A DNA stretch of 53,502 bases. It comes from Candidatus Poribacteria bacterium. Lineage in GTDB: Bacteria > Poribacteria > WGA-4E > WGA-3G. Position 1 is the stretch's first letter. Each line of letters opens with the position of its first letter. Positions 3,042 to 42,106 of this stretch are shown in pieces. Position numbers and translations under genes: made by a program. The DNA lies in NCBI GenBank assembly GCA_026713385.1, contig JAPOOP010000666.1, positions 1 through 53,502 of the forward strand, read 5' to 3'. A model generated the notes under the pieces. That model was not told the DNA's origin and searched no databases. It worked only from the letters and a program-made list of their open reading frames with translations.

Positions 3042-4121
3042 CTATGAATTGTTAACCGAGATGATGATAGGCTTATGCCCGAATATCTCCCGAAGAAGAC
3101 CATCATAACAGATTCTGGGGCTGAGACTGCCTGCCGTATCATAGTCGATCCTTGCAGCAGCATGTTGTCCTAACTCAGCGTTTATCTGTCCGCGGTAGTA
3201 GTAGCCGAACGGATCCTCTGGATTTTGTCTGATGGTCTTTTCATAGAGAGCAAGTTTGAGGTGGGGTGAGTCTTTTTTATAACTGGGGTCAAGGCGATTT
3301 ACCTCGTCAAAATCGGCAATAGCAGCATCCCGTAATTCTTGTTCATACTTCGCTAGTCCGCGATAGTAATAGGCTTTTGCAAAATCAGGTTTGAGGGCAA
3401 TCGCCTCGTCAAAATCAGCGATCGCAGTATCATGTCGTTCCAATTTGTATTGCGCCAATCCCCGATTGAAGTAAGCACTGACATTATCCAAGGTAAATCG
3501 GAGGACCATATCGTAGTCGGTAATCACAGACTCATATTGTCGAAGGGCGTACTTCGCCAATCCCCGATTGAAGTAAGAATTGACATCATCAGGTTTTAAA
3601 CGGAGTGCGTTGTCGTAATCATAAATTGCAGCTTTATATCCCTTCAGTTCGTACTTCGCTTTTCCTCGACGGTAGTAAGCTTCAGCAAAATCTGATTTTA
3701 GGCGGATAGCATTGTTATAGTGAATAATAGCGTCTTTATACTGCTTCTGATTGGATTTTTTATTTCCTAGTCGAAATTCACGTTTCACCGACCTATTTAT
3801 TCTTTGTGCCTCTTTCCCTTCAAGGAGTGCCCGCTGACTTTCATTCACTAACGACGCGTTTTCATTTAAATATTTTAGTTGTTCATCAATTTCTTGGTCA
3901 TCTGGAAGAAACCCTCGGAGATCGGTTTGCCCTTCTTTGTCCTTCAAGAGGGAATGACAATTTCCGCAAAGTGTGACTCCGTTCGGAGGATAATCCCGTT
4001 CATAAGGATATTTGTCTTTAGGCAAAATGTGATGGACATGCAAATTTTTATTATACCCACATCGACGACAAACGTAACTATCACGTTTTTTTATCTCATT
4101 CTTCCACTGCCGATCACTCAT
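3042..4121 (-). CDS. HNH-like domain fused to TPR repeats
   Basis: Start taken at ATG 4121 (MSDRQW), 7 bases after GGAG; GTG 4133 is an alternative. Residues about 10-65 form an HNH-type zinc domain: CRRC, then VHHILPK, then LCGNCH, giving the usual two Cys pairs and catalytic His pair. A short linker follows, then from about residue 115 six or so tetratricopeptide repeats (AEAYYRRGKAKYELKGYKAA and close variants) to the C-terminus, about 359 residues in all. The HNH half implies metal-dependent DNA cleavage or nicking; the TPR half implies protein binding. The genes downstream may be partners. A role in defence is plausible but is inference only. Confidence 0.8.
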   Translation of the reverse strand: MSDRQWKNEIKKRDSYVCRRCGYNKNLHVHHILPKDKYPYERDYPPNGVTLCGNCHSLLKDKEGQTDLRGFLPDDQEIDEQLKYLNENASLVNESQRALLEGKEAQRINRSVKREFRLGNKKSNQKQYKDAIIHYNNAIRLKSDFAEAYYRRGKAKYELKGYKAAIYDYDNALRLKPDDVNSYFNRGLAKYALRQYESVITDYDMVLRFTLDNVSAYFNRGLAQYKLERHDTAIADFDEAIALKPDFAKAYYYRGLAKYEQELRDAAIADFDEVNRLDPSYKKDSPHLKLALYEKTIRQNPEDPFGYYYRGQINAELGQHAAARIDYDTAGSLSPRICYDGLLREIFGHKPIIISVNNS

Positions 4122-12617: not shown

Positions 12618-13847
12618 ATGCCAGGCGCAACAACCCTTTATTTTCCAGAAGTGGGACCCGAATGGCAAGACTGGGTACAAGTCACAAACGTGGGAACCGA
12701 AGATACCCGTGTGACCGGAATCGCGAGGCATGCCGGCAACGGACAACCCACTTGGTCTGCGGATAAAACAATTAGTTCCTTCGAGTCCTGGATACCCCCT
12801 GTTGACGAGATTAAAACGAACTCCTCAATGCAGTTCACTGCCGACCAACCGATTGTGGCGGAACGACACATGCACAAGGACACGAATGTGCTTGATTTTA
12901 TCGGGGCAGCCCCCGAATACGGGACAGTCGGACAGCGGCTCTTCTTTCCAGAATTGGTCTCTGGTGCCCACGATTGGTTTCGGGTTCTGAACGTCGGCGA
13001 GGCAGACGCACACGTTAACATCACCGTCAGAAACAGGAACGGCGATGTGCTACGGCAACGCCACCACGTCATCGAACCGCTCTGCTGTTGGGATCTCAAC
13101 GAAGGTGTGATGGGGAACGTTACCGGCACAGTTGAGATGCAAAGTTCACAGCCAATCGTTGGAGAGCGGCATCTCCACTATCAAGGCGGTAAGACGAGTG
13201 TTGGACAATTCGGACAGATGATTTCGGATGCCCCCCGGACGCTCTTTTTTCCAGAAGTCGGACCCGCATGGGAAGATTGGGTTGTCATCGTCAACGTCGG
13301 AAGAGAAGACGCAGAAGTAACGATGGTCGCACGGAAAGATGACGACGCAAAATCGACATGGACAAAAAAACGCGATCGACTGAGACCTTTTGAGTGTTGG
13401 ACACCGCCTATGGACGACGTTAAAGTGAAATCCTCCGTCGAAGTGCGCAGCAACCAACCTGTTGTCGCGGAACGACACATGCAAAGTGGGACAGCCATTA
13501 TCGATCTACCGGGTGCGTCGGTGGAGGGCGGACAGGTGGGAATCCGACTCTTTTTCCCTGAGATTGCAGGTGGCGCATGGGACTGGTTCCGATTCCTTAA
13601 CGTCGGGGAAGCAGATGCCTTTGTTAATGTCATCGTCCGCAATCGTGAGGGACATATTCGCCGACAAGTGCATCGCCAAATTAAGCCGTTATGCTGTGTG
13701 GATATGGATGAGGAGGCAATGGGGAAAGTGCGCGGCACCGTCGAAGTGCAAAGCACACAACCGATTGTCGGTGAAAGACACCTCCATTACCAAACCGGAC
13801 ACAAAGGCGCGGTTGTCGGTGAATACGGCGTTGTGATTGGAGAGTAA
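12618..13847 (+). CDS. Four-repeat beta-rich protein of unknown function
   Basis: 409 residues from ATG 12618 with AGGAGG upstream. The protein is four repeats of about 100 residues. Units 1 and 3 share LYFPEVGP.W.DWV..VNVG.EDA.V; units 2 and 4 share RLFFPE...G..DWFR.LNVGEADA.VN; each ends with a QPIV.ERH.H segment. So it arose by duplication of a two-unit pair. No signal peptide is seen. Strand-rich, with a conserved Glu-Arg-His in each unit. The family is like repeat proteins seen in Chloroflexi and Poribacteria that I cannot name. It is followed by the selenoprotein gene 3 bases later. Confidence 0.75.
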   Translation: MPGATTLYFPEVGPEWQDWVQVTNVGTEDTRVTGIARHAGNGQPTWSADKTISSFESWIPPVDEIKTNSSMQFTADQPIVAERHMHKDTNVLDFIGAAPEYGTVGQRLFFPELVSGAHDWFRVLNVGEADAHVNITVRNRNGDVLRQRHHVIEPLCCWDLNEGVMGNVTGTVEMQSSQPIVGERHLHYQGGKTSVGQFGQMISDAPRTLFFPEVGPAWEDWVVIVNVGREDAEVTMVARKDDDAKSTWTKKRDRLRPFECWTPPMDDVKVKSSVEVRSNQPVVAERHMQSGTAIIDLPGASVEGGQVGIRLFFPEIAGGAWDWFRFLNVGEADAFVNVIVRNREGHIRRQVHRQIKPLCCVDMDEEAMGKVRGTVEVQSTQPIVGERHLHYQTGHKGAVVGEYGVVIGE

Positions 13848-13850
13848 AAT

Positions 13851-14420
13851 ATGGCATGGATTCAAACCGTAGATGAAGCCGATGCAACTGGCATCGTGAA
13901 AGAGGAATACGACGCGGCGATTGCGCGGGCGGGTCAACTTTACAATATCGTCAAACTTTTCAGCGTGCGACCGAAAAGTATGCACGCTTTCGTTGAGCTC
14001 TACAAAGTCGTGATGCACGACCCGGACTGCCCATTGAGTCGGATGCAACGGGAAATGATTGCCACCGTCGTCTCAAAGGTGAACGAATGCCACTACTGAA
14101 TAATTGCGCATGCTGATGAATTGCGGGAACAATTCACAGACGAACAGATTGCACAAATTATGGCAGATTTTCAGACGGCTGATATTGACGAAACCACAAA
14201 AGCGATTCTTGAATTTGCTGTCAAAGTAACGAATGCAGCACCTACTATTACACCGGCAGACTTGGAACATCTCCGCAGTTATGGACTCACCGACGAGGCA
14301 CTCTTCGCTATTGTGGAGGTCGTCGGCTTTTTTTGTTACGTTAATAGGATAGCAGACGCGTTCGGAATTGAATTAGACGAATTTCTGGAAGGGAGAAATT
14401 TTAATGAATCTAACGGATAA
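13851..14420 (+). CDS. AhpD-family (peroxidase-related) predicted selenoprotein, in-frame TGA
   Basis: Two ORFs in the same frame, 13851-14096 and 14100-14420, are separated only by TGA at 14097-14099. Read through, they give one 189-residue protein of the carboxymuconolactone decarboxylase/AhpD fold. The family's catalytic motif E-x-x-C-x-x-x-H-type sequence reads Glu79-Cys80-His-Tyr-TGA83-Ile-Ile-Ala-His87, so TGA falls exactly at the second redox Cys of C-x-x-C. A 7-base-pair hairpin 18 bases downstream fits a bacterial SECIS element. Selenocysteine is therefore the best reading over a nonsense mutation. The gene likely reduces peroxides by a thiol/selenol mechanism. Its last 17 bases overlap the following SDR gene, so the two are co-translated. 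Confidence 0.85.
14117..14136 (+). promoter_or_regulatory. Candidate bacterial SECIS hairpin
   Basis: TGAATTG (14117-14123) pairs perfectly with CAATTCA (14130-14136) around the loop CGGGAA. The loop begins 25 bases after the TGA and has G in its second position, matching the known bacterial SECIS pattern of a short stem with a G in the first two loop bases. It lies inside the coding sequence. Confidence 0.7.
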
Positions 14421-15150
14421 GATTGCGATTGTGACAGGCGCGGGACAGGGTATCGGCAAAGCGATTGCCATCAGACTCGCAAACGCTGGGGCAGATGTCG
14501 GTATCATGGATTTAAATATGGCAGCGGCTGAAGCGGTAGCACAGGAAATTGAGGCTACTGGACGCAAAGCATTACCCGTTCAGGCAGATGTATCACAATC
14601 TACTGATGTCAATGCCGCTGTGGAAAAAGTGATTTCCACCTTTGGTCGTGTTGACATTCTCGTCAACAATGCCGGCATTGCGGGACGGACACTGCCATTA
14701 ACCGACTTAGAAGAATCGGATTGGGATGCCGTGATGGGTGTAAATCTCACAGGCGTTTTTCTCTGCTGCAAAGCAGTCATTCGTCCGATGATTGCGCAGG
14801 ATTACGGGAGGATTGTGAACATTGCCTCAATTGCTGGCAAGGAGGGCAATCCGACGCTCATCCCGTATTCGGTGTCTAAAGCGGGGGTCATCTGCCTGAC
14901 AAAAGCACTTGCGAAAGAGGTAACCGACTATAACATCCGTGTGAACGCCGTATCCCCCGCGGTGATCCAAACACCGATATTGGAAGGCATGGCACAATCG
15001 ACGATTGACTATATGGTGGGTAAAATTCCGTTGGGACGTGTCGGGAAACCGGAAGAAGTTGCCGCTGTGGTGAATTTCTTGGCTTCAGATGAGGCGAGTT
15101 TCGTGACAGGGCAATGCTACGATGTCAGCGGTGGACGAGCGACGTATTAG
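14404..15150 (+). CDS. Short-chain dehydrogenase/reductase, FabG-like
   Basis: 248 residues from ATG 14404, starting inside the end of the AhpD-like gene. TGAGQGIG (about 11-18) binds NAD(P), NNAG (about 88-91) is present, and the catalytic Ser...Tyr-x-x-x-Lys is seen as IASIAG and YSVSK. LGRVGKPEEVA...SFVTGQ.YDVSGG is the usual C-terminus. Length is typical of 3-oxoacyl reductases and sugar dehydrogenases; the substrate is unknown. Confidence 0.93.
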   Translation: MNLTDKIAIVTGAGQGIGKAIAIRLANAGADVGIMDLNMAAAEAVAQEIEATGRKALPVQADVSQSTDVNAAVEKVISTFGRVDILVNNAGIAGRTLPLTDLEESDWDAVMGVNLTGVFLCCKAVIRPMIAQDYGRIVNIASIAGKEGNPTLIPYSVSKAGVICLTKALAKEVTDYNIRVNAVSPAVIQTPILEGMAQSTIDYMVGKIPLGRVGKPEEVAAVVNFLASDEASFVTGQCYDVSGGRATY

Positions 15151-26142: not shown

Positions 26143-28203
26143 ATGTCACTCAGAGAACTTTCGCTACAATCCGAATACCGCTCCGATAAAGCAGACCTTG
26201 TCAAAGACTTCTATACGCCATGCCTGAGAAATGCCACACAATATTGTCGCGCTGTCGCTTATTTTTCTAGTAATGGTCTTGCCCTGAACGTGAAAGGATT
26301 GTCCACTTTTATCCGACATGGTGGACAGATGAGTTTGGTAACAGGTCCTAAATTAATGTCAGATGACATTGAGGCGATTCAACGCGGCTACAGCGCGAAA
26401 GAGCAAAATTTAGATACTTCCCTTGATTGCGGTTTTGAGGCAGTTTTCCACGATCGATTAATGTTACTTGCTTGGCTAATTGCAAACGGTCATTTAGACA
26501 TTAAAATTGCTTGTCCCTCCGATTTAAACACTCTCCATCCTCATGCAGTTTACCACGAAAAGACCGGAGTTTTTTTAGATGAGAATGACAATGCTGTAGC
26601 ATTTTCGGGATCATCAAACGAAACTGTCGGAGGCTTATTAAACAATTTTGAATCCATCGATGTTCATTGGTCCTGGGATGACACGCAAGAGCGTGTCCAA
26701 CAAAAGGTAAATAATTTTAAGAGGTTATGGGATAACAACACAGATAAGTTGGAGGTAATAGATTTTTTAAACGCCCTTGCAGAAAAACTTTTAGTCCGTC
26801 AGACAGTGTATGAAACGGAACAAGCAGGGACAACAGATAAACCCGAAATAATTGAGCAGATCGTTCCCTATTTGCCAAAAGATATAGTATTAAGAAAGTA
26901 TCAATCTGAGGCGATTGATGCTTGGTTTAAGAATGGATGCCGTGGTTTATGGGAAATGGCAACAGGCACAGGCAAGACCATCACGGCTCTTTCTGCCCTT
27001 GCAAAACTCAGAAATGAACAGGAGCACCTGTTCATACTTGTTGCGTGTCCATATCAGCACCTCGTTGATCAGTGGTACGAGGAAGCAGTCAGGTTCGGAT
27101 TTGAACCGATCCTTGCATACAAAAGTTCTGCCAGCTGGGTGAACCCGCTTAATACCGCCTTAGTGCGGTATAATTATGGAGTTCGCGATATTGTCTGCAC
27201 GATTACAACACAAACTACTTTCATTTCCGAGACTATGCAGAGGCTACTGTCCAAGTTGAAGCGCTGTGCTGTTTTAGTAGCAGATGAGGTCCACCATCTT
27301 GGGGCAGAACGGAGTCGCAAAAAATTAACTGACATTTTTAACTATCGTCTTGGTTTGTCAGCAACACCCAATCGATGGTTTGATGAATCAGGTACGACTG
27401 CGCTCAGAACCTATTTTGGAGATACAGTTTACGAATTTTCGCTCGCCAAAGCAATTAAAATGGGGTATCTCTGCCCTTACTATTATCATCCACATCTCAT
27501 CGAATTGACTGATGAAGAATTTGAGGAGTACGAACGTCTCACAGAACGGATCTCAAAACTTTATCATCAGGTAGAATCCAGTGAGATAAGTGAGGCACTT
27601 GAACGATTGCTGATAAAACGGGCGACTCTACTTAACCGAGCAGAAAACAAACTGACAAAGTTAGCAGAATTATTGACAGACAAAACTGACTCACTGCATC
27701 ATACATTGTTTTACTGTGCTCCTGGACGAATTGCTCCAGTCCTTGAATTATTAACCAATCTTGGGTTACGAGTTGCAAAATTCACGGCGCAGGAATCAAC
27801 TGCTAAAAGGCAAGAACTGTTAAAGATGTTCACATCTGGACATCTTCAAGCTCTTGTAGCAATGAAGTGTCTGGACGAAGGCGTTGACGTACCAAGCACT
27901 CGAACAGCTTACATCCTTGCGAGCAGTAGTAACCCAAAAGAATTTATTCAACGGCGTGGGCGAATTCTCCGGCAGTCTCCGGGTAAAGAACACGCAGAGA
28001 TCCACGATCTAATCGCTGTACCACCTATAGATTACCGGCAACACCCAACGGCAACATTTCACACAGAGCGGAAAATCGTTGGGCGGGAATTAGAAAGATT
28101 TAACGAATTTGCTGGAATGGCATTAAACAAATTTGAGGCATGTGATAAAATATGGGAACTTGCTAAGAAGTACAATCTGTTAGGGGCATTGGGAGTATCT
28201 TGA
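26143..28203 (+). CDS. PLD-like/SF2 helicase, Dnd-system restriction-enzyme-type
   Basis: 686 residues from ATG 26143. Residues about 30-200 are a phospholipase-D-like domain, ending in HEKTGVFLDENDNAVAFSGS (about 138-158). The SF2 helicase part follows: Walker A ATGTGKT (about 272-278), DEVHHLG (about 379), SATPNRW (about 406), and the arginine-finger QRRGRILR (about 602). This PLD-helicase build is typical of the family annotated as the DNA phosphorothioation system restriction enzyme (TIGR04095-like, from memory). First gene of a plus-strand operon. It likely recognises unmodified or foreign DNA; if the PLD site is active it would also cut it. Confidence 0.85.
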   Translation: MSLRELSLQSEYRSDKADLVKDFYTPCLRNATQYCRAVAYFSSNGLALNVKGLSTFIRHGGQMSLVTGPKLMSDDIEAIQRGYSAKEQNLDTSLDCGFEAVFHDRLMLLAWLIANGHLDIKIACPSDLNTLHPHAVYHEKTGVFLDENDNAVAFSGSSNETVGGLLNNFESIDVHWSWDDTQERVQQKVNNFKRLWDNNTDKLEVIDFLNALAEKLLVRQTVYETEQAGTTDKPEIIEQIVPYLPKDIVLRKYQSEAIDAWFKNGCRGLWEMATGTGKTITALSALAKLRNEQEHLFILVACPYQHLVDQWYEEAVRFGFEPILAYKSSASWVNPLNTALVRYNYGVRDIVCTITTQTTFISETMQRLLSKLKRCAVLVADEVHHLGAERSRKKLTDIFNYRLGLSATPNRWFDESGTTALRTYFGDTVYEFSLAKAIKMGYLCPYYYHPHLIELTDEEFEEYERLTERISKLYHQVESSEISEALERLLIKRATLLNRAENKLTKLAELLTDKTDSLHHTLFYCAPGRIAPVLELLTNLGLRVAKFTAQESTAKRQELLKMFTSGHLQALVAMKCLDEGVDVPSTRTAYILASSSNPKEFIQRRGRILRQSPGKEHAEIHDLIAVPPIDYRQHPTATFHTERKIVGRELERFNEFAGMALNKFEACDKIWELAKKYNLLGALGVS

Positions 28204-28376
28204 TGGAAAACATGGAAAACAAAATAGAAAAATTTAGGGAAACCTTACCGTCCGCTGTAAACAAAGTTATTGATAGAGTCCTTAAGGTTGAACTTGAAAA
28301 ATTGGATATGAAGCGACCCCAAGGCATCAAACGCGAAATCCGCCGAATTATTCAAGAAGAGGTCAGAGATCAGTGA
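28203..28376 (+). CDS. 57-residue charged protein in the Dnd effector operon
   Basis: ATG 28203 shares one base with the helicase stop (TGATG), and its own stop TGA (28374-28376) overlaps the GTG start of the next gene. The product is MENMENKIEKFRETLPSAVN then a helical, highly charged tail ending RRIIQEEVRDQ. Such tight coupling on both sides suggests a real gene. A helix-turn-helix or small adaptor is possible; no family recognised. Confidence 0.75.
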   Translation: MENMENKIEKFRETLPSAVNKVIDRVLKVELEKLDMKRPQGIKREIRRIIQEEVRDQ

Positions 28377-30337
28377 AGATAACCAGTATAACATTGAAAA
28401 ATTTTAGACCATATTATGGAAAACATACTATAAATTTCGCCACCGACGACGAACATCATGTAACTGTAATTCAAGGTGTCAACGGTGCCGGAAAAACTTC
28501 CCTGTTTACAGCCCTCAATTGGTGTTTATATGGCGATGATTTTGTTAAGAGAAACATCGGTGATATTGGTGAATTAGTAAATAGACGCGCTTTAGCGGAT
28601 GGTGGAATGCTCGAAACCTCAGTAGAACTTCGCTTTACTTATGAGGGAATTTTCTCCGATCGGGAAGTTGAATTCTGTGCCAAGCGGGAAATACAAAGAG
28701 ACTTGCGATTGGACGGAATAGCACGTACTACGACGCAGTTTTTCCTAGAAATCACCAATTGGAGGGAATTTCACGATGCCGAGGCATTAAACTGGATTCA
28801 GGCAATAATCCCTGAAAATGTGAGTGTACATTTCTTTTTTGATGGAGAAAAAATTGACAATTTTACGAGGCCAAACCGAAAAACGGAAGTTGAAAGTGCT
28901 GTTCGCAATGTTTTAAAAGTTGATGAAATTGAGCGAGGGATGCGGCATTTAGAAGATGTCGCCAGTGAATACCAACGACAAGTAACCAGACATGCCTCGG
29001 GCAAGTTAAAACCATTGCTTGAAGTAAGAAAAACAAAAAAATCTCTCCGCAGCAAATTATCTAAAGATATAGAACTACTACAAGAAGAAGTCAAACTTGC
29101 TAAAAAACAAAAACGGGATATTGACACCCGATTGGAAGATATTAAGGGTTTACGTAAGTTGATTGATGAACGAAAAGCAGTCGAATCCGAATTAAAGCAG
29201 TTTAAAAACAAAAAAGTGGAGTACCAAGAGCAAACTCGTAGTTTGGCTAATCAGGGCTTTATCCCTTTAGGTAAACCAGTGCTTGATAAAGGATTGGAAA
29301 TTCTTCAAGAGATCCCAACTGGACTTCCAGATATACTTTTGAATGAATTGCTTGATAAGAGGCAATGTCTTTGTGGTAGGCCCATTCACGACGAGAGTCC
29401 AGAAATTGAAACTATTCTGAATCTGCTCAATCAATCCATTTCGACTAATTTGGGTCACACTGCCCAAGAAACCCATGGCGACTTGAAACATTTAGTGCGA
29501 ACTCATGTTGAACAAATTCCGAGTAATTTAAAATCTGTTCTGAGTGATGAGGAAGAATTGGAACAGAACATTAGAATGAAAAAAGGACGTTTGGATGAGA
29601 TTGAACGGTCGTTAGAAAATTTTGATCATGATGAAGCCAATAACTTAGAAAAACGACGTAAAGAGTATGAACAGAGCATCCTGAAATTAGAAGGTGAGAT
29701 AAACCAGATTAAGGGGCGAATTCAAGAAATTAACATAGAAATAACCAAGCTAAATCAAAAAATTTCTACTGAAAAGGATTCAAATGTTAAAGCAGAAGAA
29801 TTAAAACGTTATTGGAAACTTGCCGACGATTCTTCAATAGCAATGGGTAAAATATATGAATTATTTGCAGAAAACATGAGAGGGCACGTGCAATCAGAAA
29901 CCGAGAAAATCTTCAAAGATTTAGTGTGGAATGGTGACCATTTTCGAGAAGTGTTGCTCAATAAAGATTATGAACTTCAGGTCATTGACGAGTCTGGAGA
30001 AAATGTACTCCCAGAACTTTCCGCTGGACAGCGTCAAGTTCTCAGCCTTTCTTTTATTGCTGCAATGGCGAAGATAGCAGTTCACGACACAATCCCTCAG
30101 CTTACGGAAGAACCTTTTCCAATTGTAATGGATACAGCATTCGGTCGACTTTCCAGAAAACACAGAGAAAATATAACGAGAATAATACCCAACATTGCTA
30201 ACCAGTTAGTGCTATTTGTAACTGACGAGGAATTACAAGGAGAGGCGAAAGCAAATCTTGCATCCCGAATTGGTGCGGAGTACGAATTAGAATTTGATCG
30301 GGAAGCGAAAACTTCAAAGATTAAAGAAATTTGTTAG
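28373..30337 (+). CDS. Second DndD-like SMC/Rad50-type ATPase
   Basis: 654 residues from GTG 28373. Walker A GVNGAGKTS is at about residues 37-45, after ITLKNFRPYYG, typical of SMC/RecN/DndD heads. FFFDGEKI (about 160-167) is a DndD-like block. A long coiled coil follows, with a hinge-like Cys pair in CLCGRPI (about 330). The signature LSAGQRQVLSL (about 548) and Walker B PFPIVMDTAFGRLS are at the C-terminus. It is distinct from the DndD at 33013-35022 and belongs to the opposite operon. It may be an ATP-driven DNA translocator or sensor for the effector arm. Confidence 0.85.
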   Translation: MKITSITLKNFRPYYGKHTINFATDDEHHVTVIQGVNGAGKTSLFTALNWCLYGDDFVKRNIGDIGELVNRRALADGGMLETSVELRFTYEGIFSDREVEFCAKREIQRDLRLDGIARTTTQFFLEITNWREFHDAEALNWIQAIIPENVSVHFFFDGEKIDNFTRPNRKTEVESAVRNVLKVDEIERGMRHLEDVASEYQRQVTRHASGKLKPLLEVRKTKKSLRSKLSKDIELLQEEVKLAKKQKRDIDTRLEDIKGLRKLIDERKAVESELKQFKNKKVEYQEQTRSLANQGFIPLGKPVLDKGLEILQEIPTGLPDILLNELLDKRQCLCGRPIHDESPEIETILNLLNQSISTNLGHTAQETHGDLKHLVRTHVEQIPSNLKSVLSDEEELEQNIRMKKGRLDEIERSLENFDHDEANNLEKRRKEYEQSILKLEGEINQIKGRIQEINIEITKLNQKISTEKDSNVKAEELKRYWKLADDSSIAMGKIYELFAENMRGHVQSETEKIFKDLVWNGDHFREVLLNKDYELQVIDESGENVLPELSAGQRQVLSLSFIAAMAKIAVHDTIPQLTEEPFPIVMDTAFGRLSRKHRENITRIIPNIANQLVLFVTDEELQGEAKANLASRIGAEYELEFDREAKTSKIKEIC

Positions 30338-30348
30338 GAGAAAATATA

Positions 30349-30822
30349 ATGCTCTCAAACACTAACGGAGATAGAAACCAGCAAGCCAGAAGACCCCGGG
30401 ATCGTATCCGTATTGATAAGATTCATCATCCAACCTATATCGCATTAACGAAACCGAGAGAGAACGAAAACCACCAGGATTTATCACCTTTCGAGTCTAT
30501 GAAAAATATTTTCATGTTAGCCACCTTTATAGGTTACAACGAGAAAAAACGGGTTCCGCTTGGAAAAGATAAAGAGCTGATTTTCGCATGGGCTCGCTTT
30601 TCACCTGAGGAAGATGTCCCATTACTTCGAGCTTTAGCACTCGCAGAAACAGAACATGTTGAAGTGTTAACAGATCAAGATCGAATTCTAACGATTGCTG
30701 AAGAATATGCCAACGGTGGAATTACAGAAATTCGGAAACAGGTTGAAGACATGCCGGGTGACAGAATTACCAACTTAGTGGATTTACTTTTCAATTGGTA
30801 TCCGTACAAGACACTGGTATAG
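30349..30822 (+). CDS. Dnd-associated small protein (dnd_assoc_4-like)
   Basis: 157 residues from ATG 30349, preceded by TAGGAG at 8 bases; TTG 30331 in the same frame is less likely. The middle reads AEEYANGGITEIRKQV, which matches what I recall of the family TIGR04062 (DNA phosphorothioation-associated protein 4), and its length is close (about 140). It regularly accompanies dnd clusters; no activity is known to me. Third from the end of the effector operon, 46 bases before the DGQHR gene. Confidence 0.65.
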   Translation: MLSNTNGDRNQQARRPRDRIRIDKIHHPTYIALTKPRENENHQDLSPFESMKNIFMLATFIGYNEKKRVPLGKDKELIFAWARFSPEEDVPLLRALALAETEHVEVLTDQDRILTIAEEYANGGITEIRKQVEDMPGDRITNLVDLLFNWYPYKTLV

Positions 30823-30867
30823 ATGATTAATGGAAGAAATCAATTTATTTGAGGAATTAATTTTTTT

Positions 30868-32601
30868 ATGGCACACGACACAAAGGGCCCTCGATTTGAA
30901 AGAGAAGTACTAAAGACTTTAAAGGGTATGGACATAGAGTGCTACGGTTCTCATGGTCAGATTCCACTTCGCAACCTTTACCCTGAAAGTTCACCCGGCG
31001 AAAATTTGGAAATTGACATCGTCTGTTTAATCAAGGGCGTTTGTGTTTTAATTGAAGCCAAAACCAAAAAAGGCAAACCCAGCAATAAAATAAAAAGGTT
31101 CATTCGGCATTGTGAATTAATTAGAAAGTGCCAAGTGGATAAATACACGCTGTTTTCACACTTCAAAGGAATTCCGGAAGAAAAACTTTCAAGTTTTACC
31201 GGTGTGTCAACTTGGCGATATCTATATATAGGCACAAACAACGAACTGAACACACAAAATATTTCTCCTAAGAACTATCCGGAAACAGATCTTTTGCGAA
31301 TTTTCGATGAAACAAACTGGGAATACTTTAAAGTTCTTGAACGTGCCATAAAATCTACATCTCAATATGAATTTTTTGCTGCCCTAGAAATTACTCCGAA
31401 CGATTTAAGCGACCCAGTTTTGGGAAATTTTCTCCCCTCTAGGCCCTGCTTGGAACTTCCTAACACCACTCTTGGCTCTGGGCAAATCCGAGCCAGTCTC
31501 GTCGTTGCATTTTTTACACCTGATGAATTGCTACGTATTGCACGGGTATCACGCTATGAAGGACAACCACTGACCGTATCCGCAACATTTTCTACGTCAA
31601 CAGGGAGCTCTACTAATAAAAAAAGTAGTGGTTATCAAAGGGTTCTAAGCCATGAAAAACTAAAAAAGATTGCTGATTTTGTCAGTGATAATTCCGACAT
31701 TACCTTTCCAACAAACTTGACATTAGTCTTGTCTAAGGAATGCAAGATTCATGAAAATGAATTGCACATTCCTGCTAAATATGCTGCGATTGACATGATT
31801 GACGGGCAGCACCGTTTGTTCTCATATACTTTATCTGATGAACAGACTCGTAGAAACGCAAAACTGATTGTAACTGCAATTAAATTTCATACAAAGAAAT
31901 CGGAAATAATAAACCGATATGCCGCTCAAACTTTCATCACCATTAATAGAGAACAAACTAAGGTTAAACGAGAATTAATTCTTTTAATTTCCTATGATGT
32001 TCTCAATGAAAAAACACCAGAAGCTATTGCAGCAAAAATCCTAAAAAAGTGTGATGATAAACCTAATGGGGTTCTTGAAAGAATATTTGCTATAAGGGCC
32101 TTTATCAAGAAAAATCAATTTGATCAACGACCGATTCCTATTATTTCCGTTGTTGGAGAATTGGCACGAATTTCTAAACTTGAAAATTTGAAAGCAATAA
32201 AATCTATTTTAGGAGATCAGACAGAAAATACTGAGGATTCAGAGACACTCATCCAAGCAACTACAACATTGTTAGAGCACTATTTTTCTTTAGTAAAGGA
32301 TGTTTTTGAAGGGGATTGGGGAAAGCCCAATTCTTTGCTAATGTGCGCAAAATATTTTGGAGCTTTCATAAGGTTATTAGAAACACTTACCGCTACTGAG
32401 GATCAATTGACTTTGAAAAAAATAAAAACTGAACTTGAAAATATAAAACGGAATATCCTTAACAAATACAATAAGGGACGATCAAGCAATCCAAACCTTG
32501 TATTTGATCCGGACGCTTATTGTGCTCCACGAGAAAACTTACCTAGCAAAAGAGGCGGAAGTATTAAAGATATCCACGATTTATTGAATGAAAACCGATA
32601 G
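30868..32601 (+). CDS. DGQHR (DndB-type) protein with N-terminal PD-(D/E)XK-like domain
   Basis: 577 residues from ATG 30868 (GAGGAAT upstream, 12-base spacing). Residues about 10-110 carry a nuclease-like pattern: LEIDIVCLIKGVCVLIEAKT gives Asp, then E-x-K (about Asp50, Glu62, Lys64). From about residue 205 the protein is a DGQHR/ParB-type domain; the name motif DGQHR is at about 312-316 (AAIDMIDGQHRLF). DndB itself is about 360 residues and has no nuclease part, so this is a fusion. The combination suggests a protein that recognises a modification state and cuts or nicks. Last gene of the effector operon; 42 bases separate its stop from that of dndE, which converges. Confidence 0.8.
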   Translation: MAHDTKGPRFEREVLKTLKGMDIECYGSHGQIPLRNLYPESSPGENLEIDIVCLIKGVCVLIEAKTKKGKPSNKIKRFIRHCELIRKCQVDKYTLFSHFKGIPEEKLSSFTGVSTWRYLYIGTNNELNTQNISPKNYPETDLLRIFDETNWEYFKVLERAIKSTSQYEFFAALEITPNDLSDPVLGNFLPSRPCLELPNTTLGSGQIRASLVVAFFTPDELLRIARVSRYEGQPLTVSATFSTSTGSSTNKKSSGYQRVLSHEKLKKIADFVSDNSDITFPTNLTLVLSKECKIHENELHIPAKYAAIDMIDGQHRLFSYTLSDEQTRRNAKLIVTAIKFHTKKSEIINRYAAQTFITINREQTKVKRELILLISYDVLNEKTPEAIAAKILKKCDDKPNGVLERIFAIRAFIKKNQFDQRPIPIISVVGELARISKLENLKAIKSILGDQTENTEDSETLIQATTTLLEHYFSLVKDVFEGDWGKPNSLLMCAKYFGAFIRLLETLTATEDQLTLKKIKTELENIKRNILNKYNKGRSSNPNLVFDPDAYCAPRENLPSKRGGSIKDIHDLLNENR

Positions 32602-32643
32602 TGTAATTCTCAATCATGAACCAAATCGGACATGTTTCTAATT

Positions 32644-33006
32644 TCAAGACAAAAGATTCCCCAAATCCTCTAACCTTTTTACCCGACCGTAAAGCAGACG
32701 TACCCCTCGATTCAGATGCGCCCTGAAGTATTTGACAAGCGTATCGTTATCTGTTTCTATTTCGTTGGCAACGCACCACTCTTCCAACAATGCCACAATC
32801 AGTAGATCCCATTCCCCCATCAGTGTATCGCGATGAAGCTCTGATCCGTCACTTGCATCTATGTCAACTTCTGGTAGGTTAGGTTCTGCAAGCGATAGCA
32901 TCAACCCGATTCTACAAAGAATATTGGGGAGTAACCCTGTACGCGACTGTAAGATACCCAGTTTATTACGGGAATCCTTAGAGGTGTGAATACGATTTAG
33001 GCGCAT
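32644..33006 (-). CDS. dndE: DNA phosphorothioation protein DndE
   Basis: 120 residues from ATG 33006, starting 6 bases after the dndD stop. RIHTSKDSRNKLGILQSRTG and the C-terminal HLNRGVRLLYGR match the small DndE family, which binds nicked DNA and is needed for sulfur modification. Positive-charged C-terminus. Last gene of the dndC-dndD-dndE operon, converging on the effector operon. Confidence 0.88.
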   Translation of the reverse strand: MRLNRIHTSKDSRNKLGILQSRTGLLPNILCRIGLMLSLAEPNLPEVDIDASDGSELHRDTLMGEWDLLIVALLEEWCVANEIETDNDTLVKYFRAHLNRGVRLLYGRVKRLEDLGNLLS

Positions 33007-33012
33007 GGAACA

Positions 33013-35022
33013 CTACCCAAAATAGCCTTCCTCTATTGTCGTGTGCCCCTCAGCCTGCTGATACGCTAAGTGGAATGTATGCGAGATATGAGGTGTCAAC
33101 AACGACAGGAGAGAACCTGCAATTTCAGTATCAGTTGAAAGCAAAACAATTTGATGACTGGCATAGGGAAAATAACTTTCAACAAGAAGTTGACGGTGGC
33201 TGCTATCCAAACGACCAAGCGGTGTGTCAAGGATCATCGGTAGTGGTTTACCGGAGGTTTTTGCTAATCCCCATAATAGGGCTGTTGTGTAAATTTGCTG
33301 TTCCCCTGCCGATAATTCATCCTTTGAAATAGAGCGATTGTCAGTATCATATAATGTCACAGCAAAGGCATGCGGATCAATTTCAACGCGTTTAATTCGA
33401 TCTGGTTTGTGTGACAGCAGATTGAAACCTTCGACAATAGTATTGCTCAGCGTAACCATCTTCGCTTGTGTGAGTTGCGCTGTATATTCAGCAAGCACTG
33501 TCTGCACATTCTCTACCCGTTTTGGACGTTGGATGTGTGCTTGCCTTTGCTGCTGAGTGTGATATAACATATCCCGTTTATGCTTTGCTTTTTCTATTTG
33601 ATCTGTCAATAAACAAATCATTTCATCTATATTCTGTTTCTCTTTTTGTAGTTGTCCAAGCGTTTTATTCAACTCTGATAGATTCTCGATTATTGGTTTT
33701 AACATATCTTCGGGTGGCACTTTCTGAAGAGCGTTTTCTACTTTTTTCAGTTTTGACCGGGCAATCTCCAAGACTTCGTTCAATTCCTTAAACTCTTGCG
33801 GCGCCTTACTCAGGCAATCATCAATCCACTCTAATATATAATCATACTCAGCCGGTGAGCGTTCCCGGATCTTTTGGAAGTCGCGCAACTCCTCGGGGTA
33901 TTCAAGTTGTTCTGTCAACAACGAGGCGACTTTATTTTGAATCTGTAAAATTTGTGTAGGTTTCAAAGATATGTCTGCCCAAAATTCCTCGGACGGAAGG
34001 TGCTCAAGTAATAGATCTTTGTGTGCTTTTAAAGCGCGATTTTTTGCCTTCCATTCATCTAATTGTAGCTCTTTAAGAAGTTGTACTTTCAACCGCTCCA
34101 GATTTTCTGGAACTAAAGCAAATGGAAACAGTTCTCCACACTGATAGCGAATTTTGTTCTCCAAGTCTTCAATCTCAACTTGGTGTTGTTCCTGTTGATG
34201 ACTCAAATTTCCGCGTTGCCGGGCATAATTTCCACCTTCGGTTGCAAGTTGGTGTTCCTGTTGTTCAATTCTATCTTCTAATTCGTCAATTTGTGTTGTG
34301 TTGTCTTCAGATTCAACTTCAGCATCCGCAAGGCTGCTTTGGAGAGTTTTAATTTCCGATTCCACCTCACTAATTTCCTGTTGAACCGATTCTGGACTAT
34401 CACGTTTAACCAAACGGTTTGAATAGATATGCAGATCGGATTGCAATCGCTCTACTAAAGTTAGCCCGAACAGTGCTTTAATCGACTCTCTGAGAAAAAC
34501 ATCATGACCAGAATCATCCACTAATCTCCGAACATTCTCACCATCAAAAAAGAAAAATTGAGAAACGCCAATAGAAATCAATTCATTTATGTAATCTTGC
34601 CAGTGCTCCTTTCCAAACTCAGTGTTTAACCTATCATTTTCATAAATAGCAAGGTCTTCTTTAACAATTTCTCTACCTCTTTGACGTTTCCACGAGCGTT
34701 CAACCGTGTACCTTTTTTTCTCACCGTCGCGGGCATATTCAAATTCTAAGGATACAGAGGCACGGTCAATGGGTGAATTCGCAGTGGGGCTTCGATGAAT
34801 TATTTCAAAGAGATAATTGTAATATTCATTATGGCTGACTCGGCTCCCAAGTGAGCGTTTGCCATACAGACAAAGGCGAACAGCGTCCAGCAGCGTCGTT
34901 TTACCAGCACCATTCATTCCTCCGATAAGGATTATAGGTTTTCTATCCTTTGGTGTGAGGTGAATGGTTTGTATGCCACGGAACAAACCTACATTGTTAA
35001 GAGTGAGTTTGTGGAGAATCAT
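33013..35022 (-). CDS. dndD: DNA phosphorothioation ATPase DndD
   Basis: 669 residues from ATG 35022, overlapping the end of dndC by 26 bases. Walker A GGMNGAGKTTLLDA (about 34-47), FFFFDGENVRRL, a long coiled coil (about 215-560), the signature LSAGEQQIYTTALLWGL and Walker B PLPMILDTPLGRLDSSHR followed by LLSTDTEI. These are the DndD hallmarks. DndD is thought to supply ATP-driven nicking or structure change for DndC. It lies in the canonical C-D-E order. Confidence 0.93.
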   Translation of the reverse strand: MILHKLTLNNVGLFRGIQTIHLTPKDRKPIILIGGMNGAGKTTLLDAVRLCLYGKRSLGSRVSHNEYYNYLFEIIHRSPTANSPIDRASVSLEFEYARDGEKKRYTVERSWKRQRGREIVKEDLAIYENDRLNTEFGKEHWQDYINELISIGVSQFFFFDGENVRRLVDDSGHDVFLRESIKALFGLTLVERLQSDLHIYSNRLVKRDSPESVQQEISEVESEIKTLQSSLADAEVESEDNTTQIDELEDRIEQQEHQLATEGGNYARQRGNLSHQQEQHQVEIEDLENKIRYQCGELFPFALVPENLERLKVQLLKELQLDEWKAKNRALKAHKDLLLEHLPSEEFWADISLKPTQILQIQNKVASLLTEQLEYPEELRDFQKIRERSPAEYDYILEWIDDCLSKAPQEFKELNEVLEIARSKLKKVENALQKVPPEDMLKPIIENLSELNKTLGQLQKEKQNIDEMICLLTDQIEKAKHKRDMLYHTQQQRQAHIQRPKRVENVQTVLAEYTAQLTQAKMVTLSNTIVEGFNLLSHKPDRIKRVEIDPHAFAVTLYDTDNRSISKDELSAGEQQIYTTALLWGLAKTSGKPLPMILDTPLGRLDSSHRQLLVESYFPYASHQIVLLSTDTEIAGSLLSLLTPHISHTFHLAYQQAEGHTTIEEGYFG

Positions 35023-36424
35023 TGCTGGAACCGCTATTATCTATATTGGAGTACACTTCTTCTGCTGAACGCCAGTCCTCATGGAAGATTTCATCAATTC
35101 GGTCTTGTATCTTCGCACGTCGGCTCATTCCGTCCATTTGCTGTTCTGTGTCAAGGAGTTTTGAAACAAGAATGACAGGAACCTCTTTTTCTTCGCAAAT
35201 TGCTTCCAAAATTTCTTTATCTTTCTTCCTAAAAGAAAAAGTATCATCAAGGATCCAATCACGCTCTCCAACAATCTCTGCGTAAATTTGTGGGACGGCA
35301 TCTTCCCAATCTTGGCGTTCGGTTCGCCAGATTTTACGGATTTCTTCAAGCTCAACATCCGTAATCAATTCAATGTTCGGGTCAGGCCCCTTTTTGCGAA
35401 CTAACTTTTGGACATTCAAAAGCTCTTTTAAGAGTTTTTTGCAAAACTCCAGTGTATAGGGACCATGGACGAGTTTATTATTCAGAATTGTAATCTGTCC
35501 ATTTCGTCGTCGGCGTTCACGAATTTCAGGTTTCTTTTCAGGATCTTGGGTTGAGGCAAGGAAGTCACGGAACTCAAGCAGCGGTAGCATCCAGTCCTCG
35601 CCGTTATCAATGAGCCCTTCCATTGCTTTGTCTTTTGTAACGACAGTACAAGTCCAGCACCCGAAGCGGCTATTTCCACAAGATGGAGTCGTTTCATCAA
35701 CCACCAGCGGACATTCACCCTGTGCATTCGTGTTACGGTAGAGCGTCAGCAATTGCTTATTATCACCACCCCATGGAGAAGAAGCAGACAACAAGTACAT
35801 CCATACATCGTCTGTTGTAAAATCAACAACAGGCGTATAGACAAAGGCGTTGGGTAGCGTCGTATGTAGCGAGAGAAGTGACTCTTTTATGCGATGCAAA
35901 CTTAAGACCTGATCACGTGTTGCACTTTCACCCTTGCGAACCCCCAGAACCATGATAACTTCGCCGTGTTCAGCAACTCTGTCTAAGATAAATTGATTCG
36001 CTGGTCGGATTTTCATCCGATCAGTACACCACCTGAATCGAGTATAAGGCGCAGGATATCCCCTTCCAATGAGATTGACCCAGAAGGTATCATCAATTCT
36101 TGGACGGACGAGAGCTGTCTGAAACGGCATCTCCTGTTCGCGCGCAGTCGTCTCAATTCGGTCTAAAGTGCCAGTGATATAACTAACGATTACCGGTGTC
36201 TCAACAAGCGTATCGGACGAAATCACATAGACTGGGTATTTTCGTTGTTCTGGTGGCAGTTCGGCGAGAGCATACCAGATGAGTTGAAGGGCAGTCGTTG
36301 AGTCTTTTCCGCCGCTGTATCCGATGACCCACGGCCGGGCATTTTCAAGATAAACTTCTTGAATTTCACGGTGGATATCGTCAAGATCACGCGAATTGAA
36401 GATACTGTAGGGGGTCTCTGCCAT
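34997..36424 (-). CDS. dndC: DNA phosphorothioation sulfurtransferase DndC
   Basis: 475 residues from ATG 36424, preceded by TAAGGA at 9 bases; an upstream ATG at 36448 is less likely. The PP-loop SGGKDS is at residues 37-42 (GYSGGKDSTTAL), as in PAPS-reductase-like ATP pyrophosphatases. FRWCTDRMKI (about 163) and CGNSRFGCWTC (about 238) supply cysteines for the 4Fe-4S cluster. It adenylates DNA and inserts sulfur received from a cysteine desulfurase (DndA or IscS). No dndA is in the window. First gene of the C-D-E operon. Confidence 0.93.
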   Translation of the reverse strand: MAETPYSIFNSRDLDDIHREIQEVYLENARPWVIGYSGGKDSTTALQLIWYALAELPPEQRKYPVYVISSDTLVETPVIVSYITGTLDRIETTAREQEMPFQTALVRPRIDDTFWVNLIGRGYPAPYTRFRWCTDRMKIRPANQFILDRVAEHGEVIMVLGVRKGESATRDQVLSLHRIKESLLSLHTTLPNAFVYTPVVDFTTDDVWMYLLSASSPWGGDNKQLLTLYRNTNAQGECPLVVDETTPSCGNSRFGCWTCTVVTKDKAMEGLIDNGEDWMLPLLEFRDFLASTQDPEKKPEIRERRRRNGQITILNNKLVHGPYTLEFCKKLLKELLNVQKLVRKKGPDPNIELITDVELEEIRKIWRTERQDWEDAVPQIYAEIVGERDWILDDTFSFRKKDKEILEAICEEKEVPVILVSKLLDTEQQMDGMSRRAKIQDRIDEIFHEDWRSAEEVYSNIDNSGSSNDSPQTHS

Positions 36425-36753
36425 GAGCTCATTCCTTATCAAAAACATAAAAATTGATCGTCTAATGCAGCTATTTAAGTATAGTATAATTCAGTTAAAA
36501 ATACTACACTTTTTAATTCAAAATTCCAGAGAAGAGGTAATATATCACCCTTTTAACTTGCAGCAATCCAAAGTTTCCGCTAAAATATCAATAGACGTTG
36601 GATATTCGTTCATCATATGAAGGTTCTGCTGACCTCCACCTTCCGACATTCTACGCATTTCCACACACGAAAATAACAGTAGTGGAGGTTCATAGGTTAC
36701 AGCCAGCAAGTAGCCCCTGATTTAGCGTTTCTGCAGAAATAGGATTAACACTT
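36425..36753. other. Divergent intergenic region between dndC and the winged-helix gene
   Basis: AT-rich. On the minus strand TATACTATACTT near 36477-36488 could serve as the dndC -10, without a good -35. Inverted repeat ACCTCCAC (36632-36639) and GTGGAGGT (36682-36689). Nothing else stands out; the promoter of the rightward genes is not obvious. Confidence 0.4.
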
Positions 36754-39887: not shown

Positions 39888-40973
39888 ATGACTATCCGAG
39901 TCGGTATTGTAGGTACAGGTGGGATTTCACGTGCACACCAGCGAGCTTACGCGAAAGTGGGTGGTTTCGAGATCGTTGCGGTGTGCGACATCATCAAAAG
40001 CAAGGCAAATGAAGCCGCTGAACAGTGGGGTGTTCCGAGAAAGCACGTTTTTTCAAGTTATAACAAGATGCTTGAAATGGATGAGATTGATACCGTAAGC
40101 GTTTGCACCTACAACCAAGGACACCGACGTCCGACAGTTGCAGCACTGAACGCTGGCAAACACGTCTTCTGTGAAAAACCGATGGCGGCGACGCTCCCGG
40201 ATGCCACCGCGATGACTCGTGCAGCGAAGGCGTCCGGCAAAATTTTGCAGATCGGTCTCCATAGCACGTTTAATCCGAGACTCCAATTCGCGAAGAAGGT
40301 CATCGATGAAGGATTGCTTGGCGATATTTACTATTCCGAGTCCTCTGGAGGCAGGCGACGCGGGAATCCCGCGCGCACGTTCATCTATAAAAAGACGGCG
40401 GGTGCCGGTGCGATTGTAGACATCGGGGTCTATAACATGCACAATTCACTGTATGCGATGGGGTATCCGAAACCGGTGCGGGTCTCCGCTATCACCGAGG
40501 ATTACATCTCACAGCAAGACCCACAATTCCGGGGTATCATGGATGTCGAAGAGTTCGGTGTGGCATGGGTGCGGTTTGAAGATGGCGGTGTGATGGTGTT
40601 CAAAATCTCTTGGGCAATCCATCAGGATTCGCTCGGTCCGAGTTTCTGTCTCGGTAAAGAAATGGGAATCTCCTTAGATGGGCCGGTTGTCTATGCCGAT
40701 GCCTATACAGACGATCTTCAGAAACTGGTGAAATCGGAAGGATTGACTGCAGAACCGAATCCACCAGAGGGGATGACAACGATCCGTTTATCAGGATTTC
40801 CAGAGGTCGATGTTTGGGAGGCACAGATGACGGCGTTCCGAGAAGCCGTCAAAGCAGATGCCCCGTCCCCGATACCGCCGGAGGGTGTGCTGCTTACGAA
40901 CGTAATTATGGACGGTATCTTCCGCTCACATGAATCGGGAAAAGAGGTTGCAGTGAGAGTGCCGGAGATTTAG
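39888..40973 (+). CDS. Gfo/Idh/MocA-family oxidoreductase, tandem copy 1
   Basis: 361 residues from ATG 39888, with TGAGGAGA upstream. Rossmann loop VGIVGTGGISRAH (about 4-16), FCEKPMAATL with the family Lys (about 89), and a C-terminal domain with KTAGAGAIVDIGVYNMH carrying the active-site Asp and His. Very similar to the following gene. NAD-dependent sugar or cyclitol oxidation is usual. Confidence 0.9.
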   Translation: MTIRVGIVGTGGISRAHQRAYAKVGGFEIVAVCDIIKSKANEAAEQWGVPRKHVFSSYNKMLEMDEIDTVSVCTYNQGHRRPTVAALNAGKHVFCEKPMAATLPDATAMTRAAKASGKILQIGLHSTFNPRLQFAKKVIDEGLLGDIYYSESSGGRRRGNPARTFIYKKTAGAGAIVDIGVYNMHNSLYAMGYPKPVRVSAITEDYISQQDPQFRGIMDVEEFGVAWVRFEDGGVMVFKISWAIHQDSLGPSFCLGKEMGISLDGPVVYADAYTDDLQKLVKSEGLTAEPNPPEGMTTIRLSGFPEVDVWEAQMTAFREAVKADAPSPIPPEGVLLTNVIMDGIFRSHESGKEVAVRVPEI

Positions 40974-41020: not shown

Positions 41021-42106
41021 ATGACTGTCCGAGTCGGTATTATTGGTACGGGTGGCATTTCACGTGCGCACCAGAGCACATACGAGAAAGTAGGCGGTTT
41101 TGAAATCGTTGCGGTGTGCGACATCATCAAAAGTAAGGCGAACCAAGCAGCGGAAGAGTGGGGTGTCCCGAAAAAGCACGCATTTTCAAGTTACAACAAG
41201 ATGCTTGAAATGGACGAGATCGATGGAGTGAGTGTCTGCACTTACAATCAAGGGCATCGTCGACCAACAGTCGCAGCACTGAACGCCGGTAAACACGTTC
41301 TCTGTGAAAAGCCGATGGCGGCGACGCTCCCAGATGCCACCGCGATGGTACGAGCGGCAAAGGCATCAGGCAAAATCTTACAAATCGGTCTCAATCCGAC
41401 GTTTAGTCCGAGACTCCAATTTTTAAGAAAGGCGTTCGATGCAGGGTTATTCGGCGATATCTATTACTCTGAATCCGCAGGATGCAGGCGGCGCGGGAAT
41501 CCGGGACATACGTTCATCTACAAAAAGACCGCGGGCGCGGGGGCAACTGTCGATATCGGTGTCTACAATATGCATGCCTCGCTGTATGCGATGGGTTACC
41601 CGAAGCCGGTACGGGTCTCTGCCATTACTGAAGATTATATCTCGCAGCAAGATCCGAGGTTCCGTGGTATTATGGATGTTGAAGAGTTCGGTGCGGCGTG
41701 GGTGCGGTTTGAAAACGGCGGTGTCATGGTATTCAAAATCTCTTGGGCAATCCATCAGGATTCGCTCGGTGGCAACTTCCATCTTGGGACGAAAGCGGGA
41801 TTCTCGCTGAGTGGACCGGTTGTTTATGCCGATGCGTATGCTGGTGATCTCAAGAAATTTGTGGAATCAGAGGGATTAACAGCGCAGCCGGATCCACCAG
41901 AAGGAATGACCACGATCCAGTTCTCAGGATTCCCAGAGGAAGATAACTGGGCGGCACAGATGATAGCATTCCGTGAAGCCATCAAAGCGGACGCACCGTC
42001 GCCGATACCCCCAGAGGGTGTTTTGATCACAAATGTGATTATGGACGGTATTTTCCGTTCGCACGAGGCGGGGAAAGAGGTAGCGGTGAGAGTGCCGGAG
42101 ATTTAA
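41021..42106 (+). CDS. Gfo/Idh/MocA-family oxidoreductase, tandem copy 2
   Basis: 361 residues from ATG 41021, the same length as copy 1 and nearly the same sequence throughout; differences cluster in the substrate-side C-terminal domain (SESAGCRRRGNPG against SESSGGRRRGNPA, and GGNFHLGTKAGFSLS against GPSFCLGKEMGISLD). 47 bases separate the two genes, and each has its own GAGGAG Shine-Dalgarno. A recent tandem duplication. Confidence 0.9.
   Translation: MTVRVGIIGTGGISRAHQSTYEKVGGFEIVAVCDIIKSKANQAAEEWGVPKKHAFSSYNKMLEMDEIDGVSVCTYNQGHRRPTVAALNAGKHVLCEKPMAATLPDATAMVRAAKASGKILQIGLNPTFSPRLQFLRKAFDAGLFGDIYYSESAGCRRRGNPGHTFIYKKTAGAGATVDIGVYNMHASLYAMGYPKPVRVSAITEDYISQQDPRFRGIMDVEEFGAAWVRFENGGVMVFKISWAIHQDSLGGNFHLGTKAGFSLSGPVVYADAYAGDLKKFVESEGLTAQPDPPEGMTTIQFSGFPEEDNWAAQMIAFREAIKADAPSPIPPEGVLITNVIMDGIFRSHEAGKEVAVRVPEI

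Follow-up and report, generated by a model that had tools for sequence, protein, structure and literature searches.

The locus raises the question of whether the TGA codon inside an ahpD-like gene of Candidatus Poribacteria terminates translation or encodes selenocysteine (Sec). The window, i.e. the whole stretch of 53,502 nucleotides that was analysed, belongs to a Candidatus Poribacteria MAG of 4.98 Mb (749 contigs, 89% complete, 4.6% contamination). Standard ORF calling splits the locus into an 82-residue ORF and a 99-residue ORF that starts with TTG. Translation of 13851-14420 with the TGA read as a residue gave a single frame of 189 residues with one internal TGA, so that the two same-frame halves joined by one TGA, as claimed in the preliminary description, were indeed found. 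Comparative evidence on the TGA codon, the SECIS hairpin, the Sec machinery, selection on both halves, family and fold, and operon conservation points to a true bacterial selenoprotein gene, predicted with a probability of about 0.96 to encode a TIGR01926-type AhpD-like redox protein with Sec83. The gene and its active-site codons are as follows.

13851..14420, plus strand: predicted ahpD-like selenoprotein gene, ATG to TAA, 189 residues, Sec at codon 83
14097..14099, plus strand: putative Sec codon UGA, residue 83, at the second Cys position of C-H-Y-U
14052..14111, plus strand: active-site codons, Glu68 (14052-14054), Cys80 (14088-14090), Tyr82 (14094-14096), Sec83 (14097-14099) and His87 (14109-14111)

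In profile searches the joined protein scored 143.4 bits with TIGR01926 ('peroxidase-related enzyme'; cut-off 81.8), which makes it a member of that group, and 53 bits with PF02627 (CMD family; cut-off 23). It reached 19.3 bits with the model of AhpD proper (TIGR00777; cut-off 191.95) and 75.6 bits with NF041238 (AhpD-related (seleno)protein, AhpD_rel_CFYUT; cut-off 175), and is a member of neither; NF041238 has a related CMD domain and the CxxU motif in common with the poribacterial protein, but its model, at 357 positions, has roughly double the length. The residues around codon 83, ...VSKVNECHY-U-IIAHADELREQ..., form the motif E-x11-C-x-Y-U-x3-H, in which the TGA occupies the place of the second cysteine and a histidine follows four residues on; the TGA thus lies where the preliminary description had put it, at the second Cys of C-x-x-C and ahead of Ala-His. 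Glu68, Cys80, Tyr82, residue 83 and His87 are invariant in an alignment of 16 sequences, and the alignment with distant homologues that the same description had suggested places a cysteine codon (TGC or TGT) opposite the TGA in four of them (L077, L101, L107 and L108). The spacing of these residues is identical to that of the proton-relay residues of Pseudomonas aeruginosa PA0269 (Glu36, Cys48, Tyr50, Cys51 and His55) and of Mycobacterium tuberculosis AhpD (Glu118, Cys130, His132, Cys133 and His137) (PMC3141380). Both PA0269 (2ijc/2o4d) and M. tuberculosis AhpD (1gu9/1knc) share the arrangement E-x11-C-x-(H/Y)-C-x3-H with the protein studied here, while being remote from it in sequence (10-21% identity).

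The AlphaFold2 model, calculated with Cys in place of Sec, had a mean pLDDT of 78 and a pTM of 0.73, with low values at both ends, and adopts the all-helical CMD/AhpD fold. Its best match in the PDB was 2pfx (TM 0.76, E 1.1e-9), followed by 3c1l, 2prr, 6k40 and 2oyo (TM 0.73-0.76 and 29-32% identity for the group), and the sequence search returned the same peroxidase-related group at the top. These five structures have the same fold but are Cys-containing proteins, 2pfx having a cysteine aligned with Sec83. PA0269, the debrominase Bmp8 and M. tuberculosis AhpD showed lower structural similarity.

If the TGA were a real stop, the locus would give a truncated 82-residue protein together with a product of an internal start (e.g. 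TTG 14121), or would be a pseudogene, and the two ORFs delivered by ordinary ORF calling are what such a gene would yield; a copy in one relative (G044, L100:201-701), which has additional in-frame stops, resembles a decayed gene. Against this stands the conservation of the codon and of what follows it. All 44 matches of at least 55% identity that span the codon, found in a search of 98 genomes, have the TGA, and in the 37 distinct close coding sequences read base by base it was TGA in every case and never TAA or TAG. The median dN/dS was 0.067 before the TGA and 0.120 after it (5-95% range 0.063-0.204), the latter value revealing purifying selection downstream of the UGA and arguing that this part is translated and selected. 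A stop would moreover split the catalytic motif and leave a covarying SECIS unexplained, and termination at this codon is considered very improbable.

Every close relative with a named record is a MAG of Candidatus Poribacteria. Across 85 genomes of the phylum 52 matches to TIGR01926 were obtained, 49 with the TGA and three without it. The TGA is found also in two homologues from Planctomycetota (about 40-46% identity), and a homologue from an alphaproteobacterium has TGC at this codon. In the evolutionary tree a single origin of the Sec form received 23% bootstrap support, and the Cys sequences were placed on very long branches. One genome with the Sec form (G030) holds, in addition, a Cys-type TIGR01926 protein (L107, G030:C127:5484-6011), whose model score of 212 bits is far above that of the Sec form, on a 7-kb contig that is possibly a contaminant.

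SelB with Sec-tRNA(Sec), bound to a hairpin just after the UGA, would bring about the insertion of Sec83 where translation would otherwise terminate. The candidate structure comprises the following elements.

14117..14136, plus strand: predicted bacterial SECIS hairpin, 7-bp stem UGAAUUG/CAAUUCA, from the fold, covariation and bSECIS constraints
14113..14139, plus strand: predicted extended stem below a bulge, CUG/CAG, from the fold

The arms of the hairpin occupy 14117-14123 and 14130-14136 and enclose the loop CGGGAA (14124-14129). The published bSECIS model asks for a loop of 3-9 nt with G within its first two positions, a stem of 4-16 bp, a distance of 16-37 nt from the UGA and an MFE of at most -7.5 kcal/mol (quoted in PMC13188914), and the hairpin, with a 6-nt loop having G at the second position followed by another G, 7 bp, 24 nt between the UGA and the loop and an MFE of -9.1 kcal/mol, agrees with it in every respect; it is the 7-bp hairpin with a G-rich loop at SECIS distance that the preliminary description had noticed. 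A scan of the window with Rfam gave nothing at gathering thresholds. Taken by itself, the hairpin has an unremarkable stability (z -1.25 to -1.30 versus shuffled sequence), 15 to 28 of 200 shuffles folding equally well in short stretches; with z at about -1.3, single-sequence folding statistics were dropped as proof of a SECIS and covariation was taken instead.

Among 40 distinct sequences, 95.7% of the stem cells are paired, as compared with 25.7-39.3% after displacement of the partner strand by 1-3 columns, and four of the seven stem pairs exhibit changes on both sides. None of 500 shuffles reached the covariation score of 0.347 (shuffled mean 0.109), and 31 double-change cells were observed (shuffled mean 7.0); relatedness of the sequences can inflate the significance in the shuffle control, yet the slid control, which retains that relatedness, collapses. 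The clearest pair is 24/37, seen as G-C, A-U, C-G, G-U and U-G and broken in no sequence. Leucine has six codons, and the one at position +8 is TTG in 37 of 37 close sequences, which is what a constraint on the RNA would produce.

The upper stem is kept in every TGA-bearing homologue read at 55% identity or above, so that, among these close homologues, no relative having the stop without the hairpin was met, a case that the preliminary description had named as contrary to its prediction. In several relatives the folding energy of the hairpin falls short of -7.5 kcal/mol or another structure is the MFE fold, and the lower extension is not generally conserved, the middle one of its three pairs being broken in most relatives. 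The two Planctomycetota sequences (L075 and L076) have the stem at the same position with swapped pairs, and the stem is absent from the Cys homologues L077, L101, L107 and L108. A distant clade of five sequences (L102-L106, from G057, G037, G049, G056 and G040) has the same TGA but not the stem of the close homologues; four of them fold best into a hairpin near CGCAGA-GUU-UCUGCG, closer to the UGA and with the loop GUU, which judged by eye on these five sequences seems to fit the bSECIS model too and may point to a SECIS that shifted its position or had a separate origin. In the G044 copy one of the additional stops is a TAG within the SECIS stem, where G-C has become A-U, pairing being kept despite the broken frame.

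Of the genes for Sec machinery that the preliminary description had proposed to look for, those for tRNA-Sec, SelB and SelD were all found above their cut-offs in the genome of the window. The tRNA-Sec (C653:7150-7239) scored 78.7 bits against a cut-off of 47, the next-best tRNA having 42.3 bits, and was identified by ARAGORN as tRNA-SeC with the anticodon TCA. Directly before it lies a complete selB (C653:5199-7094; 341.5 bits, cut-off 242.25). The selD gene (L086, G000:C222:1796-2719; 359.8 bits, cut-off 125) itself holds one in-frame TGA, in KCAG-U-ASK, so that SelD of this genome is probably a selenoprotein as well. The search for selA succeeded in part: the first 130 residues were found, the frame being cut where contig C174 ends (TIGR00474, E 2.4e-23; 82.7 bits across model positions 1-106, which falls short of the full-length cut-off), but no full-length match was obtained in this genome at 1e-30. 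Since most relatives have selA in full length, the rest of the gene is best read as lost to an assembly gap. Together with the TIGR01926 membership and the covarying SECIS, this machinery supports the earlier prediction of an AhpD-family selenoprotein.

Four genomes (G024, G030, G033 and G034) have the TGA-containing gene and no strong match to tRNA-Sec, three of them (G024, G030 and G033) with selB over the cut-off. The selB gene of G024 is situated at the end of a contig. In G030, selB is followed by most of a tRNA-Sec that is nearly identical to that of the window's genome and ends abruptly at the T loop: the sequence stops after GGGTTCG (L123, about 3450-3530, on G030:C54) and continues as unrelated sequence, owing to a misassembly or to an insertion in tRNA-Sec. 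The four cases are likely to be assembly gaps or misjoins and not clear counter-examples.

Two further readings concern the code and the data. A changed genetic code, with TGA read generally as a sense codon, would likewise leave one frame open through a TGA; it is made exceedingly improbable by the ending of four of the 39 long ORFs of the window in TGA, by the confinement of the TGA to the Cys position with a SECIS, and by the presence of tRNA-Sec and SelB. An error of sequencing or assembly, or a contaminant contig, might be suspected in a MAG as fragmented and contaminated as this one, but more than 40 separately assembled genomes, including the single-contig G010, G021 and G028, share this TGA and hairpin, with the same flanking gene order on both sides, so that the likelihood of such an artefact is negligible.

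The predicted selenoprotein gene is flanked by two genes.

12618..13847, plus strand: upstream gene, an ORF of 409 aa, stop 3 nt before the ahpD-like start
14404..15150, plus strand: downstream short-chain dehydrogenase/reductase (SDR), an ORF of 248 aa (PF13561, 234.7 bits)

The 409-aa protein consists of two similar repeated halves (FFPEVGP-W-DW---NVG ... PIV-ERH--), and no Pfam family was found for it over the cut-off, even at loose E-values. The SDR gene, from its ATG on, shares 17 nt with the last part of the predicted selenoprotein gene, and the 3-nt gap and this overlap make co-translation of the three-gene operon likely. The order 409-aa gene, ahpD-like gene and SDR gene is conserved, directly adjacent, in 21 poribacterial loci; no ahpC was seen adjoining the ahpD-like gene. 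Because the SDR begins before the ahpD-like frame has ended, its translation may require that ribosomes get past the UGA, and the SDR may be sensitive to selenium supply.

Farther downstream in the window, 26143-36448 is occupied by a DNA phosphorothioation (Dnd-type) defence locus with DndC (673 bits) and DndD (679 bits), a DndB/DpdB-like protein and PbeA-like (821 bits) and PbeC-like (421 bits) genes (PADLOC library). Two very similar tandem ORFs for oxidoreductase-like proteins of 361 aa (39888-40973 and 41021-42106; MTxRVGIxGTGGISRAHQ) appear from their sequences to be a recent duplication.

As regards function, the second active-site thiol would be replaced by a selenol in the five-residue set Glu68, Cys80, Tyr82, residue 83 and His87. 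Sec83 may react with peroxide or a similar electrophilic substrate and then form a selenenylsulfide with Cys80, which a cellular thiol reductant would reset, Glu68, Tyr82 and His87 presumably relaying protons; this peroxide-type chemistry is regarded as rather probable. Non-peroxide chemistry of the selenoprotein, e.g. disulfide reduction or reductive dehalogenation in a pathway of the operon, has a smaller though appreciable chance of being correct. It would suit the annotation of TIGR01926 members as only 'peroxidase-related', the neighbouring fold of the CMD-fold debrominase Bmp8 (6ohi/6ohj; 18-20% identity, TM 0.67-0.69), and an operon made up of an SDR and a protein without assigned function, with no ahpC seen adjacent. 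Bmp8 is, however, remote, and the closest solved structures (2pfx, 3c1l, 2oyo, 2prr and 6k40) belong to the peroxidase-related group.

The preliminary description had stated that AhpD-like selenoproteins are known in a few marine lineages; they are known, but their spread was understated, the family being a listed one present in many marine samples. An AhpD-like selenoprotein with CxxU was described first from the selenoproteome of the Sargasso Sea, in which this protein was represented by 27 genes (PMC1088965), and a 2026 review lists AhpD-like, TIGR01926, CxxU as a selenoprotein family (PMC13188914). The poribacterial protein, compared by model and motif, has the model family, the CxxU motif and a downstream bacterial SECIS in common with the Sargasso family (reference protein MCB9421940.1), and differs in its occurrence in Candidatus Poribacteria and in its conserved three-gene operon. 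The GOS survey found AhpD-like 1 (COG2128) and AhpD-like 2 (pfam02627) in large numbers (PMC2398784); these share CxxU in a CMD/AhpD protein with the present one but come from marine environmental reads, and the first group is the likelier place for the poribacterial protein. No description of an AhpD-like selenoprotein in Poribacteria was found in the literature search. The kind of protein is thus already known, and what is new is the lineage, the near-complete preference for Sec within the phylum and the conserved three-gene operon.

The gene offers a clean multi-genome case, in an uncultured sponge-associated phylum, of a selenoprotein split in two by standard ORF calling. In sponge symbionts selA and selB are reported as enriched and as co-occurring, which most close references of these symbionts do not show (PMC5649159), and the ahpD-like gene, with its covariation-supported SECIS, would be a concrete user of that machinery. 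The conserved operon links the predicted Sec enzyme with an SDR and the 409-aa protein and thereby provides a lead on the role of the subfamily. A bolder proposal, which at present must be called doubtful, is that Poribacteria have made a near-purely Sec-containing TIGR01926 enzyme, in a dedicated operon, into a specialised redox step of life in sponges, with the SDR coupled to Sec. If this is true, the enzyme would act e.g. on halogenated or peroxidised metabolites and not as a general peroxidase, and expression of the SDR would be tied to selenium supply.
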